DNA from: Oxalobacter formigenes
GTDB taxonomy: Bacteria; Pseudomonadota; Gammaproteobacteria; Burkholderiales; Burkholderiaceae_D
Direction of reading: 5' to 3'
NCBI GenBank assembly: GCA_949290765.1
Contig: CASETG010000091.1
Coordinates: 1 to 35,047 of the forward strand
Length of the DNA stretch: 35,047 bases
The notes below the pieces were generated by a model. It searched no databases and was not told where the DNA came from. It saw nothing but the letters and a program-made list of their open reading frames with translations. Of this stretch, positions 8,313 through 13,755 are shown in pieces (positions within the stretch are counted from its first letter, which is position 1; the number at the start of each line of letters is the position of its first letter). The position numbers and the translations under genes are program-made.

Positions 8313-8349
8313 CGAACTGGCTGGTCGGGCATCACGACGGGAGATAAGG

Positions 8350-8973
8350 ATGAATGCGGATACGAAACAGTTTTTTCTGACCGGAGAAGCCGGAAATCTT
8401 GAGTGTGCGCTGGATTTGCCCAAAACCGAACCTGTCGGTATCGCCCTGCTTGCACATCCTCATCCGCTGTATGGCGGTACCATGAACAACAAGGTCGTCC
8501 AGATGATGGCGCGGTCTTTTGTCGGACTGGGATACGCTTCGGCAAGAATGAATTTTCGTGGCGTCGGACGTTCCGCGGGAATGCACGATGGCGGAAACGG
8601 TGAAACGGACGATATGGCACGGCTTCTGGATTATATGCGGAAACTGTATCCCGGTCTGCCGTTCGTACTGGGTGGATTTTCATTCGGAACCTATGTCCAG
8701 TCCCGTTTGCAGCAACGTCTTGCACAAGAAGGAATCCCCCCGGAAAAGATGGTGCTTGTCAGTGCGACCGCCGGAAAATGGGCTGTGGAAAAAGTCCCGG
8801 GCAACACCGTACTGATTCATGGTGAACTGGATGAAGTCGTGCCGCTGACCGATGTATTTGACTGGGCGCGTCCTCAGGATTTGCCGGTGACGGTCGTTGC
8901 CGGAGCCGATCATCTGTTCAATCACAAATTGCATCATATCCGCAATATCATCACGGCGTTTTTCCGCACTTGA
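8350..8973 (+). CDS. Alpha/beta hydrolase of the Tex30/KANL3-like group
   Basis: The 207-residue protein has the alpha/beta hydrolase catalytic triad: Ser111 in GFSFG, Asp161 in HGELDEVVP and His188 in GADHLF. The oxyanion-side motif AHPHPLYGGTMNN (35-47) is typical of this small family. The start chosen at 8350 follows a good GGAGATAAGG ribosome site; a longer reading frame from 8275 would overlap the lipoprotein gene without such a site. The substrate is unknown. It follows the transporter operon and precedes the PBP5-like gene. Confidence 0.85.
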   Translation: MNADTKQFFLTGEAGNLECALDLPKTEPVGIALLAHPHPLYGGTMNNKVVQMMARSFVGLGYASARMNFRGVGRSAGMHDGGNGETDDMARLLDYMRKLYPGLPFVLGGFSFGTYVQSRLQQRLAQEGIPPEKMVLVSATAGKWAVEKVPGNTVLIHGELDEVVPLTDVFDWARPQDLPVTVVAGADHLFNHKLHHIRNIITAFFRT

Positions 8974-9009: not shown

Positions 9010-10155
9010 ATGAGAAAAAGTCTCTGGCAGCTTTGCATACTGTTTTTTGCCATGCTGGTATATCCGGCATATTCTCTTGCGGCGCCGAAAATGACGGCGA
9101 AAGCCTGGTTACTGATGGATACGGTTAGCAATCAGGTATTGGCTTCCAGAAATGCCGACATGAAAATGACCTCGGGCACGGCCTCGAAACTGATGACGGC
9201 TTGTCTGGTATTCGATGCGCTAAAAGATGGAAAAACAGGCCTTGAACAGGAAGTGGTCATATCGGAAAAGGTCTTGCAGGCCGTCTCCAATGGTCCCAGC
9301 ATGTTTTTGCAACAGGATCAGACAGTTACGGTACAAGAACTGTTGCAGGGCTTGCTGGTTCATGGCGCAGACGATGCCGCGCAGGCGTTGGCGTTGACGG
9401 TTTCCGGCGATGAACGGAAATTTGTCGAGCTGATGAACCATGAGGCCGGCAGAATCGGCATGAAATCGACACACTTTGTGCATCCTTATGGTTCTCCCGG
9501 CAAACAGGGATATTCGACGCCGGCCGATCTGGCGGTTCTGTCCGGACACATCATCAGGAATTATCAGGCGTATTATGATTATTTTTCGGTACGCGAGATA
9601 ACCCATAACCGGATCAAGATGCGCAATCCCAACCGACTGTTGTGGCTGGATGCCGCCGTCGATGGCCTGATGGCGACAAACAGTGCCGGTGAAGGGCATA
9701 CCCTGGTGGCTTCAGCAAAACGCCAGAGCGTATCGGGCGAACGCCGGATGCTGGCGATCGTGACGGGACTGTCATCCGAGCAGGCCAGCGCGCAGGAAGG
9801 TCTCAAATTGCTGAATTGGGGATTTCAGGATTTCGACATGATTCGCCTGTTCAGGAAAGGACAACCTGTTTCATCGCCCGTGGTCTGGAAAGGCTCGTCA
9901 GGGGAAGTGGATATCGGTTTCGAGGAAGATACATATCTTTCAGTGCCGAAAGGAAAAGCGTCCCGGTTGCGATCTGTGCTTGTCAGACAGGACCCCCTGA
10001 TTGCGCCGATCGACGAAGGGACTCGGATAGGCATACTGAAAGTCATGATTGACGACAAGGTGATTGCCGAATTGCCGGTTGTTGCGCTGGAACAAATCAA
10101 TGTCGCCAGCTTTCTCGGGCGATTGTGGGATACTATCTGCCTGTGGTTCAAATGA
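9010..10155 (+). CDS. PBP5-like D-alanyl-D-alanine carboxypeptidase homologue, probably catalytically inactive
   Basis: The 381-residue protein has the full layout of the DacA/PBP5 family. It has a signal peptide (residues 1-25, ending LAA), the S11 peptidase domain to about 265, the PBP5 C-terminal beta domain (about 285-365), and a terminal amphipathic segment with Trp and Phe that fits a membrane anchor. It lies just before ybeD-lipB-lipA, the standard dacA position. All three catalytic motifs are changed. SxxK reads T57-A-S-K60, so the nucleophilic serine is threonine. SxN reads G119-A-D121. KTG reads M221-A-T223. Flanking family sequence is well kept (KLMTACLVF, LLVHGADDAAQALA, LVASAKR). 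I infer a pseudoenzyme that may still bind peptidoglycan or act as a scaffold. The ribosome site is weak. Confidence 0.9.
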   Translation: MRKSLWQLCILFFAMLVYPAYSLAAPKMTAKAWLLMDTVSNQVLASRNADMKMTSGTASKLMTACLVFDALKDGKTGLEQEVVISEKVLQAVSNGPSMFLQQDQTVTVQELLQGLLVHGADDAAQALALTVSGDERKFVELMNHEAGRIGMKSTHFVHPYGSPGKQGYSTPADLAVLSGHIIRNYQAYYDYFSVREITHNRIKMRNPNRLLWLDAAVDGLMATNSAGEGHTLVASAKRQSVSGERRMLAIVTGLSSEQASAQEGLKLLNWGFQDFDMIRLFRKGQPVSSPVVWKGSSGEVDIGFEEDTYLSVPKGKASRLRSVLVRQDPLIAPIDEGTRIGILKVMIDDKVIAELPVVALEQINVASFLGRLWDTICLWFK

Positions 10156-10173: not shown

Positions 10174-10449
10174 ATGAGTTGTTTTCTTGGAAACGAAGAT
10201 CCGATTGAATATCCTTGCGATTTTCCCATCAAAATCATGGGAGAAAGAAAGGACGAGTTCGCCGATACTATTGTGGACGTGATTCGCCTGCACGATCCCT
10301 TGTTCGATGCCGCGTCGTTGGGCATGCGCCTTTCTTCCAGGGGGAATTATCTGAGTCTGACCGCGGTGATTCGTGCGACCAGTCGCGAACAGCTGGACAA
10401 TCTGTATCGTGCCTTGTCCTCTCACCCGATGGTTCGGGTGGTCTTGTAG
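10174..10449 (+). CDS. YbeD-family DUF493 protein
   Basis: The 91-residue protein matches the small DUF493/YbeD family in length and pattern: YPCDFPIKIMG at the start, SSRGNYLSLT in the middle and a C-terminal MVRVVL. The fold resembles regulatory ACT-like domains; its function is not established, though it commonly sits between dacA and lipB as here. It starts 18 bases after the PBP5-like gene with a GGAG-type ribosome site (AGGAGCTC) and is followed by lipB after 33 bases. Confidence 0.9.
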   Translation: MSCFLGNEDPIEYPCDFPIKIMGERKDEFADTIVDVIRLHDPLFDAASLGMRLSSRGNYLSLTAVIRATSREQLDNLYRALSSHPMVRVVL

Positions 10450-10482: not shown

Positions 10483-11178
10483 ATGAATACCGAAGCAATC
10501 ATGGTGCGTCGGCTGGGGCGGGTACCCTATGCGCCTGTTTTCCGGAAAATGACCGAGTTTACCTGCCAGAGAAACGTCTCGACGCCCGATGAAATCTGGG
10601 TGGTCGAGCATGACCCGGTTTTCACGCTGGGACAGGCGGCTTCGCGTGCACACATTCTGGATGCGCACGGGATTCCCGTGTATGAAACGGACCGTGGAGG
10701 AGAAGTGACCTATCATGGGCCGGGACAGCTGGTCGTCTATTTGCTGATCGATCTGAGACGCCGGTTCAGGAAACTGTATGTTCGCGAACTTGTGTACCGG
10801 ATAGAAGAAACGATTATCCGTGCATTATCCGTTTTTCATCTCGATGGTGAACGTCGCAAGGGAGCACCCGGTATTTATATTCCGGCACATCCCATGTATG
10901 GGGGCTTGCAGGGAGCCAAGATCGCAGCTCTGGGATTGAAGGTCAGGAGCAACGGTTGCATGTATCACGGCTTCGCGCTGAACGTCGCCATGGATCTGGA
11001 GCCGTTCAAATGGATCGATCCATGCGGTTATCATGGATTGGCCGTTACCGATATGCGGTCGCTCGGATTTTCCGGTCGGAAGGATGAGGTGATGCAAACG
11101 GTACTGGCATGTCTGTCTTCCGAACTGGCATGCAGTCTGAAAATCGCAGATGGCATGGAGACGGAAGATGACCGATGA
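10483..11178 (+). CDS. lipB: Octanoyl-[ACP]:protein N-octanoyltransferase
   Basis: The 231-residue enzyme moves octanoate from acyl carrier protein onto lipoyl domains of 2-oxoacid dehydrogenases and the glycine cleavage H protein. The conserved [12 protein letters not shown] is at residues 71-82, the catalytic Lys146 in GAKIAALG, and the acyl-binding Cys181 in DPCGYHGL. The stop overlaps the lipA start by 11 bases, so the two steps of lipoate synthesis are translationally linked. Confidence 0.96.
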
Positions 11179-12136
11179 TACCGGAAAGACAAGAAAGGCG
11201 CTTCTTTCGCAAAAGCAGAAAGGCGCCATCAAAACATCGAGAATCCCAATCAGGATACAACCGACGGAAAAATTGCCGAAGCCGCCATGGATCAGAGTGA
11301 AAGCCGGGACATACCGTTCACGTTTTTATGAAGTGAAAGATCTGATTGCATCTCACAAGCTGGTGACGGTTTGCGATGAAGCCAGTTGTCCGAACCGCGG
11401 GGAATGTTATGGAAGCGGGACGGCGGCTTTTATGATTATGGGCGACAAATGCACGCGTCGTTGTCCGTTTTGCGATGTGGCGCATGGTCTGCCGGATCCG
11501 CTCGATGCCCGTGAGCCGGGACAGCTCGCTGATACGATCGCCCTGCTGGGATTGTCCTATGTCGTGCTGACTTCAGTCAATCGTGACGATCTCAAGGATG
11601 GTGGTGCCGCACATTTCGTCGCCTGTCTCAAGGCAATCAGGGCTGCGTCTCCGGAAACGAAAATCGAGATACTGACGCCGGATTTCAGGGGGCGGATGGA
11701 GCGGGCACTGGATGTGCTGTGCGCATATCCTCCCGATATCTTCAATCACAATCTCGAAACAGTACCGCGCCTGTATCTTCAGGCAAGGCCCGGTGCCGAT
11801 TATCTGTCGTCGCTGGCATTGCTGCGTGCCTTCGGAGAACGGTGTCCACATATTCCGACCAAATCGGGATTGATGGTCGGTCTGGGAGAAACGGACGAGG
11901 AAATTATTCAGGTAATGGCTGATTTGAGAGCGCATCAGGTTTCCATGCTGACTATCGGCCAATACCTGATGCCCTCTTCCGATCATTTGCCGGTTCTGCG
12001 ATATGTCAGTCCGGAAACGTTTGCCAGATTCGAGCGGCTTGCCGGTCAGATGGGTTTTGCCCATGCGGCGGTCGGTCCATTGGTACGGTCAAGCTATCAT
12101 GCAGACGTGCAGGCAAAAAAAGCGGGAATGACGTAA
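11168..12136 (+). CDS. lipA: Lipoyl synthase
   Basis: The 322-residue radical-SAM enzyme inserts two sulfurs into octanoylated lipoyl domains. The auxiliary cluster cysteines are Cys69, Cys74 and Cys80 ([12 protein letters not shown]), the radical-SAM cysteines Cys95, Cys99 and Cys102 (CTRRCPFC). The C-terminal RSSYHA that supplies the fourth ligand to the auxiliary cluster is present. The start at 11168 has a GGAAG site and gives the usual length; an in-frame ATG at 11150 would add six residues. The stop codon lies inside the loop of the downstream terminator. Confidence 0.96.
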
Positions 12137-12168: not shown

Positions 12169-13755
12169 TCAGACCGTTCTTTCGATCAGGTCGATTTCAT
12201 CCGGACTCAGGCCGAACAATTCATAAACGATCAGGTCGATTTCCTTTTCGGCACGTGCGATATCGGCATTCATGTTGAAGACCTTGTTTCTTTCCTGATA
12301 AAAATAGTCGTTCCAGAGTTGAAGGTCGTCTGCCGGAATATCCGTCTTGAAGGCGTCGATGATTTCGTTTCGGAATACATCGAATTCATGTGCGAACCAG
12401 TTATGCAGTCGCTGGGTCAGTTTCGACGAGAGGCCGTCAGGCAGCAGATTGTAGGCAGTCATGCCACGGAAGTGTCTGACCAGATCGTCTCTTGAAACGG
12501 AAGCCTCCTGACAAAAATCGGAAAGCTGTCCCATACGTGCGCGAACCAGACCCGGCGCATCGGGAACCGGCAGCGTTTCGATACCTGAAACCGTCAATTC
12601 ATAGGTTCCGTCAGGTTTTTTGATGGAATTGTTCCGGATCAGATACCAGAGTACGGAAGAATTGAGCAATGCGACAAGGTAATAATCCTGTTCGGTTGTG
12701 TAAAGGCCGGAGTGGTTGAACGCGCCACCGTTCTTGTCGATGGAGAATGTCGGGTTGTGAGACTGTTCGGAAAATCCCAGTTTGGCGCTGAACATTTTTT
12801 CCGGATTTTCGCTGACCTGCTGCAATTCAAACCATTTCTGTGCGCCGGGTCTTGCTTCCAGCTTTTCACGGAACGGCAGCAAGTGTTTTTTGACAGCCGG
12901 ATATTTTTCGATATCGTACTGATTCTGCGGTGTGTAGATGAGCCACTGTGACCGCGATTCAGCCGTCCATTTATCCCGGTCTTCCTTGCTGACATAAGGT
13001 TTCAGAATATCGGCGGAATTCGGGTCTTCCTTGACCAGACTTTCTTTCGTTTTGTCATCGATGATGAAGGCTTCATCAAGCCCGGTGACGATGCCGCGAT
13101 ATACAGGACCATACATTTCGCGCAGCGTCTGATAAGAGCCCTTGAGTTTTTCATCCAGAAAACGGCGAGCGCTTTCCTGCAACCAGACCGTCGTTTTGCC
13201 GGAAAGCAGGTTGATGGCATTCAACAGCAGGTAAAACCGGGAAAATGCGGCATCATCCCCGAGCATGTCCGCAAGAACGAAGCGTTCGTATGATTTGACC
13301 TTGCGGTTTCTGGGGTACAGGCGGATTTCGTTCAGATCGGTCAACAGATAGAAACCGTCCTTTTGCAATTCACCGAATTTCCAGGCTTCCTTTTCAAAAA
13401 GTGCCACGGCGTCAGAAGACAGATCCGCTTCGCCTTCCAGTTTCCATGCGGCGACGGCTTGCTGGTTGGCAGGTTTGAACTGCCCGAGGAGAATGTCGAA
13501 GAAAGGTTCGGGAGTGGAATCCGGCGCGATCGTCACCGTATTTCCGGATGCACTGTAACCGAGAAGTTTTTCCAGAATTTCGGAAGTGAAGGCTGAAACC
13601 TGGGATGCATGGTCTTTCTGGCGAAGTTCTCCAAGGCGGTTGCACCATTCCTGCAAAACCATTTTTCGGGAATCAAGGTTCAACTGCTTTAGTTCGGATT
13701 CTAGAATCTGCGTATGGAAAAGTGTCTGTGAAGGATTCTGTTGTGTATTTTCCAT
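12169..13755 (-). CDS. Orphan type IIG-like protein: N-terminal nuclease-like region plus TaqI-type target recognition domain, no methyltransferase
   Basis: The 528-residue protein resembles the two ends of a type IIG (Eco57I/TaqI-like) restriction-modification enzyme. Residues about 80-185 match the N-terminal nuclease region in layout (EPFFDILLGQ, AAWKLEGEADL, then LTDLNEIRLYPRN and SRFYLLLNAINLL). Residues about 212-400 look like the C-terminal specificity region (YGPVYRGIVTGLDEAFIID, ILKPYVSKEDRDKW, KYPAVKKHLLPFREKLEARP, VALLNSSVLWYLI, ETLPVP). The methyltransferase core with its NPPY motif is absent; the halves join near residues 186-212. The expected E-x-K reads K105-L-E107, suggesting a dead nuclease. 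A charged helical C-terminus follows. No partner methyltransferase lies nearby. It could be an internally deleted relic or a repurposed DNA-binding protein; the frame is intact. Confidence 0.65.
   Translation of the reverse strand: MENTQQNPSQTLFHTQILESELKQLNLDSRKMVLQEWCNRLGELRQKDHASQVSAFTSEILEKLLGYSASGNTVTIAPDSTPEPFFDILLGQFKPANQQAVAAWKLEGEADLSSDAVALFEKEAWKFGELQKDGFYLLTDLNEIRLYPRNRKVKSYERFVLADMLGDDAAFSRFYLLLNAINLLSGKTTVWLQESARRFLDEKLKGSYQTLREMYGPVYRGIVTGLDEAFIIDDKTKESLVKEDPNSADILKPYVSKEDRDKWTAESRSQWLIYTPQNQYDIEKYPAVKKHLLPFREKLEARPGAQKWFELQQVSENPEKMFSAKLGFSEQSHNPTFSIDKNGGAFNHSGLYTTEQDYYLVALLNSSVLWYLIRNNSIKKPDGTYELTVSGIETLPVPDAPGLVRARMGQLSDFCQEASVSRDDLVRHFRGMTAYNLLPDGLSSKLTQRLHNWFAHEFDVFRNEIIDAFKTDIPADDLQLWNDYFYQERNKVFNMNADIARAEKEIDLIVYELFGLSPDEIDLIERTV

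Follow-up and report, generated by a model that had tools for sequence, protein, structure and literature searches.

The DacA-locus protein encoded in a 35,047-nucleotide stretch of Oxalobacter formigenes DNA (the window) is probably a dead, membrane-tethered PBP5 pseudoenzyme that has been kept for a structural role in one Oxalobacter clade. PBP5, the commonest DD-carboxypeptidase, is viewed chiefly as a D-Ala-trimming enzyme. There is good support here both for the loss of catalysis and for continued constraint: judged from its sequence and those of its relatives, the protein is almost certainly without catalytic activity and is very likely still under selection as a protein. Whether a structural or binding role is the reason for its retention we consider evenly balanced.

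The window belongs to contig C91 of a 1.37 Mb assembly comprising 108 contigs with a completeness of 72.7% (genome G000), which we compared within a sample of 13 Oxalobacter genomes (G000–G012, several of them incomplete). Three of the 13 (G000, G011, and G003, referred to below as the trio) encode a full-length DacA without the active-site motifs, with open reading frames in all. The window gene starts with ATG, encodes 381 amino acids without an internal stop, and matches Peptidase_S11 (161.8 bits, residues 24–240) and PBP5_C, both above cut-offs, so that the full-length PBP5-type protein of the preliminary description is borne out. The features of the locus are as follows.

8347–8973, forward strand: alpha/beta hydrolase, upstream flank of the dacA slot (Pfam Hydrolase_4, 31.0 bits)
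9010–10155, forward strand: PBP5/S11 open reading frame without the motifs (Peptidase_S11 and PBP5_C matches; AlphaFold mean pLDDT 89.1)
9010–9081, forward strand: probable signal peptide, residues 1–24 (hydrophobic N-terminus; pLDDT below 50 for residues 1–20)
9178–9189, forward strand: degenerate SxxK, here TASK, residues 57–60, the Ser nucleophile replaced by Thr (codons ACG GCC TCG AAA)
9295–9297, forward strand: S96, a near-invariant Ser, replaced by Pro, as in all of the trio and in G009
9364–9372, forward strand: degenerate SxN, here GAD, residues 119–121 (codons GGC GCA GAC)
9628–9630, forward strand: R207 replaced by Pro (P/G/P in G000/G011/G003)
9670–9678, forward strand: degenerate KTG, here MAT, residues 221–223 (codons ATG GCG ACA)
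9832–10098, forward strand: PBP5_C stalk domain (PF07943), residues 275–363, conserved (71.4 bits)
10111–10146, forward strand: C-terminal helix, residues 368–379, probable amphipathic membrane anchor (helix on the AlphaFold model)
10174–10449, forward strand: ybeD, downstream flank of the slot (NCBIfam HP0495_fam, 46.5 bits, above cut-off)
10483–11178, forward strand: lipB (TIGR00214, 165.2 bits)
11150–12136, forward strand: lipA (TIGR00510, 396.1 bits)

Domain order, gene slot, and predicted fold all identify the window protein as a PBP5/DacA ortholog by descent. The order hydrolase, dacA, ybeD, lipB, lipA is kept in relatives, with 18 bases between the end of dacA and ybeD; the synteny with ybeD-lipB-lipA noted earlier is confirmed by family profile matches and by this comparison. 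The hydrolase was found in 10 of 11 other regions of the genus compared, and none was found on the small contig of G009. Preservation of the signal peptide and the anchor, also proposed earlier, agrees with a reading of the sequence and with the predicted C-terminal helix, and remains a prediction on both counts. Beyond lipA, the reverse strand of the window encodes a 528-aa protein (12169–13755) with a weak match to the TaqI_C specificity domain (22.6 bits, below cut-off), no other match in Pfam, and none in NCBIfam. Its relatives occur in seven other Oxalobacter regions (partial in G009), with none in the compared stretches of G004, G005, and G010, and it may be a second protein that lacks its catalytic part.

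The window protein has none of the three motifs of S11 DD-carboxypeptidases, namely SxxK with its Ser and Lys, SxN, and KTG, and the replacements reported at residues 57–60, 119–121, and 221–223 proved exact to the base. SLTK or SLAK, SGN or SAN, and KTG are present in all 80 DacA loci of a scan of relatives (the best 80 of 564, two of the 80 being Oxalobacter; one of the search patterns adjoins SxxK), as well as in 21 of 21 DacA loci from outside the genus that were read individually; six further non-genus genomes yielded no DacA locus and fall outside this count. Position 207, which we take to be the equivalent of Arg198 in E. coli PBP5, is Arg in 80/80 of the same best 80 of 564 relatives and Pro in the window. 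The motif losses are not a matter of chance, given that the motifs are intact in all DacA compared outside the genus.

Within Oxalobacter, the dacA slot occurs in several states. Full-length DacA with the motifs present is encoded by five of the 13 genomes (G001, G006, G007, G008, and G012), and in one (G002) a contig end truncates the gene, in which SLTK and SGN can still be read. In the trio, the motif positions outside the window read TASK, GGD, and FAT in G011, and TPAR, GSE, and a four-residue gap at KTG in G003. A further genome, G009, has lost SxxK (GMAQ) and KTG and has kept SGN and the Arg at 207. No dacA match was obtained in G004, G005, or G010 (3/13; completeness 91, 87, and 99), where a ybeD match follows the hydrolase stop after 43–57 bases with no dacA between them. 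The gene is therefore dispensable in some Oxalobacter. No frameshift, which would have pointed to decay, was encountered in the relatives read, and the single-contig genome G003 lacks the motifs just as the window does.

A tree of eight concatenated neighbor proteins (coverage partial for G009 and the outgroups) grouped the trio with an ultrafast bootstrap of 99 and placed G004, G005, and G010 adjoining it, with support of 100 for the split of both groups from outgroups and intact species. In the rpoB tree, in which G004 and G005 had no match and G002 was partial, the trio grouped with G010 (99), and G010 fell inside the trio at low support (79, 56). The dacA-less species thus form a lineage that is sister to or nested within the trio, and gene loss and motif loss may have occurred in either order. 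G009 fell with the intact species in both trees, beside G007 and G008 at 72 in the eight-protein tree. Five residues, T57, P96, G119, H158, and Y160, are common to the trio and absent from 103 intact sequences, P96 being found in G009 too. The intact set comprises 26 of 30 individually read loci and 77 of the 80 scan loci (L061, L062, and L100 were dropped as repeat contigs). The agreement of the trio in T57, P96, and G119, none of which occurs in the intact set, speaks for a loss in their common ancestor, and the simplest account is a single loss in the ancestor of the trio and a separate one in G009. Recent decay with intact orthologs in sister species was rejected for the trio, which has derived residues in common.

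The preliminary description had taken the damage to be limited to the three motifs, and this does not hold: R207 and other invariant positions are gone and the whole catalytic domain is clearly relaxed. Among 90 near-invariant positions (conservation of at least 97% across the 103 intact sequences), 66 are retained in G000, 69 in G011, 67 in G003, and 73 in G009. Seventeen of the 90 are changed in all three proteins of the trio (E54, P55, A56, S57, L58, T59, S96, S119, N121, E129, A171, R207, K221, T222, G223, T225, and V363). These cluster at the active site, with 12 of the 17 lying within three residues of a motif versus 8 of the 73 others (Fisher p = 1.7e-6; p = 5.0e-5, 3.4e-7, and 2.8e-5 under other thresholds). 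Identity inside the trio rises along the protein, from 55–62% in the catalytic domain to 70–75% in the PBP5_C stalk and 78–89% in the last 37 residues (345–381). This pattern is reversed in pairs of the intact species G001, G006, and G007, whose catalytic domains are 91–98% and stalks 76–92% identical.

When protein distances in the trio are divided by those in pairs of G001, G006, and G007, the catalytic domain gives 7.52 and PBP5_C 1.68, compared with 0.64–2.32 for eight neighbor genes (two more that were extracted were left out). The stalk value lies inside the range of the neighbors, yet above seven of the eight. Neutral evolution is rejected for the motif-less DacA. An omega of 1 was rejected on the trio branches (2dlnL 208 and 181 for the two domains, 373 for the entire gene), in pairwise comparisons (98 and 90 for G000-G011, 128 and 114 for G003-G011), and on the G009 branch as well (about 39). 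Whole-gene pairwise omega was 0.117 for G000-G011, 0.057 for G003-G011, and 0.027 for the intact pair G001-G006, sizes that are unreliable because of saturation; pairwise dS was 2.0 and 4.3 for the two motif-less pairs computed. Branch models gave no significant difference in omega between trio and intact branches (2dlnL 0.01 and 0.46 for the two domains, about 1.1 for the entire gene) and unrealistic dS on several branches, and synonymous saturation makes the sizes of their omega estimates unusable. For these reasons we rely only on the rejection of neutrality and on the distance ratios. The dN/dS check proposed in the preliminary description was therefore informative in part, in that omega = 1 could be rejected but its size could not be reliably estimated. 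Of simulated neutral copies, 2.8% of 500 still had an open frame at 0.1 substitutions per site and 0/500 at each of 0.3, 0.5, 1.0, and 2.0. With the catalytic domain relaxed, some of the constraint may serve only to preserve folding.

AlphaFold, run on an alignment in which the window protein was joined by 45 of the best 80 of 564 relatives (46 sequences in all), returned a confident model (pTM 0.84) in which the N-terminal 20 residues are the sole run with pLDDT below 50. Since the aligned relatives are motif-intact, the model speaks for compatibility with the fold and not for stability. Its top fold matches in the PDB are PBP5 and PBP6 (best E 3.9e-41).

A second S11 protein with intact motifs, which had been suggested as a source of the missing activity, was found elsewhere in the genome, together with an S13 PBP4. 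The former, presumably of the PBP7 type, carries SITK (SVTK in G003), SEN, and KTG and occurs in 12 of the 13 genomes, G012 showing only DacA. S13 PBP4 was matched in 10/13 genomes, and the nine proteins read, G012 being the tenth, all have SxxK, SNN, and KTG. Other loci probably supply DD-peptidase activity in G000, G003, and G011, each of which encodes PBP4 and PBP7-type proteins whose motifs are complete. No S13 PBP4 match was obtained in the dacA-less G004, G005, and G010; the S11 protein of these species has a long N-terminal part rich in Lys, Ala, Pro, and Thr, in frames of 530–583 aa. VanY was not matched in any of the 13 genomes, several of which are incomplete. The YkuD family was matched in one genome (1/13) and the S12 family in 12/13, the exception in both cases being G009, a long-branch species.

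Class A beta-lactamases bear no clear relation to the state of DacA among the 13 genomes. Matches to PF13354 of at least 106 bits number two in G003, two in G011, and one in G008, and G007 has a weak 104-aa fragment. The matches in G003 and G011 form neighboring class A beta-lactamase-like pairs of 125–146 bits (G003:C1:1603752-1605666 and G011:C2:783187-785994). According to the portion consulted of a study of the genus, which includes cultured species, two bla genes are found in all Oxalobacter species but O. vibrioformis (PMC9812493), and pairs of this kind are present in G003 and G011.

The proposal of a maintained pseudoenzyme, made from the window sequence alone, is strengthened by its occurrence in three species, the open frames, the rejection of omega = 1, the confident fold prediction, and the concentration of losses at the active site. 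A single loss of catalysis would have occurred in the ancestor shared by the trio, in which other DD-peptidases were sufficient. Thereafter the protein would have been kept as an exported stalk-and-head body, tethered by its C-terminal helix and perhaps self-associating, and its action would be to bind, position, or mask either cell-wall enzymes that are its partners or pentapeptide that has not been cleaved, rather than to trim D-Ala, leaving the DD-peptidase work to PBP4 and PBP7-type enzymes. Somewhat tentatively, we suggest that the stalk and anchor are the selected part and may serve as a cell-wall scaffold or pentapeptide guard in species that have no VanY or YkuD match and would rely on PBP4 and PBP7-type enzymes. 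Counting against a structural role, the gene is dispensable in G004, G005, and G010, though these also lack an S13 PBP4 match.

The main rival to a retained structural role is slow decay under a folding constraint, in which an unneeded gene loses its most-constrained part, the active site, first, the remaining selection acts only against a misfolded or toxic periplasmic protein, and the dacA-less species are the end point. We regard this as unlikely overall, though it would account for a catalytic domain whose divergence is some 7.5-fold that seen in intact species, for the absence of dacA from G004, G005, and G010, and for the further partial motif loss in G009. It fits poorly with three species that have neither stop nor frameshift, the two pairs computed having dS of 2.0 and 4.3, with the failure of simulated neutral copies to keep an open frame, and with a stalk whose divergence is within the range of its neighbors and a C-terminus (last 37 residues) with 78–89% identity within the trio. 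Protection of the downstream genes from polar effects could also keep a frame open, and the short distance to ybeD and the conserved order lend this some plausibility; it leaves the amino-acid constraint in stalk and anchor unexplained, however, and dacA is absent in three species with the downstream genes in place, which makes it very improbable as the sole reason.

Two further alternatives concern the loss of catalysis itself. Threonine serves as the nucleophile in other enzyme families, and G000 and G011 have Lys60 alongside Thr57, so that a remodeled site might still act as a hydrolase or be acylated by other chemistry. SxN, KTG, R207, and S96 are gone in all three species, though, and G003 has Arg in place of the Lys in addition to its gap at KTG. 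As the replaced residues differ among G000, G011, and G003, an active site built on Thr57 is judged extremely unlikely. Sequencing or assembly error would be a natural suspicion in a genome as fragmentary as that of the window, but the same state recurs in G003 (one contig) and G011 (two contigs), both listed as 100% complete, and error was rejected on these grounds as having a negligible probability.

Nature has in effect performed a separation-of-function experiment in a lineage that has lost the active site of PBP5 and kept the stalk and anchor: whatever remains selected in the motif-less DacA would be a noncatalytic role of PBP5. If the structural reading is correct, this would be a duty that PBP5 may perform, unnoticed, in other bacteria. 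The presence of intact, dead, and absent states in one slot of one genus opens the question to comparison between species. A proteome study of OxCC13 reports 1822 of 1867 unique proteins as detected (PMC4764995). In the literature covered, which consisted of titles, abstract openings, and selected passages and left most subscription journals outside, we found no published natural motif-less PBP5 and no published Oxalobacter DacA.

The window protein resembles PBP5/DacA of Gram-negatives in its predicted fold (4k91, 6ntz, and 3itb; TM 0.77–0.85 by query length), in the order of S11 and PBP5_C, in the predicted C-terminal helix, and in having ybeD-lipB-lipA beside its gene. It differs in lacking SxxK, SxN, KTG, and Arg 207, and catalysis is not expected. 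The intact DacA of G001, G006, G007, G008, and G012 are orthologs in the same slot that are 50–55% identical to it, but they have the motifs and a catalytic domain conserved as much as or more than the stalk.

The closest experimental parallel is the S44G mutant of E. coli PBP5, likewise a full-length, inactive, exported PBP5, and one that self-associates in a FRET study (PMC2909392; PMC5596342, both consulted in part). The mutant has neither penicillin binding nor carboxypeptidase activity, as the first of these states citing earlier work, is absent from midcell, and does not complement shape, so that in E. coli the midcell localization and shape function of PBP5 are tied to an intact active site (PMC2909392). 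Because inactive E. coli PBP5 misses midcell and fails in shape complementation, PBP5 is not known to act as a scaffold. The portion seen of the FRET study reports that dimer FRET is altered by S44G and that the cells bulge, so that an inactive PBP5 shows altered self-association and morphology, and proposes that the terminal D-Ala may be shielded by PBP6a while cross-links form (PMC5596342), a proposal that could, by analogy, provide a model for the guard role. S44G is a point mutation made in the laboratory that leaves the remainder of the site unchanged, whereas the Oxalobacter proteins represent a natural multisite loss across species. PBP2B of B. subtilis is unlike the Oxalobacter protein in being division specific and not a carboxypeptidase, and in having had its active site removed by mutation. 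Like the role proposed here for the motif-less DacA, that of PBP2B in division is, in the part of the report consulted, a structural one that is independent of catalysis (PMC5656894).
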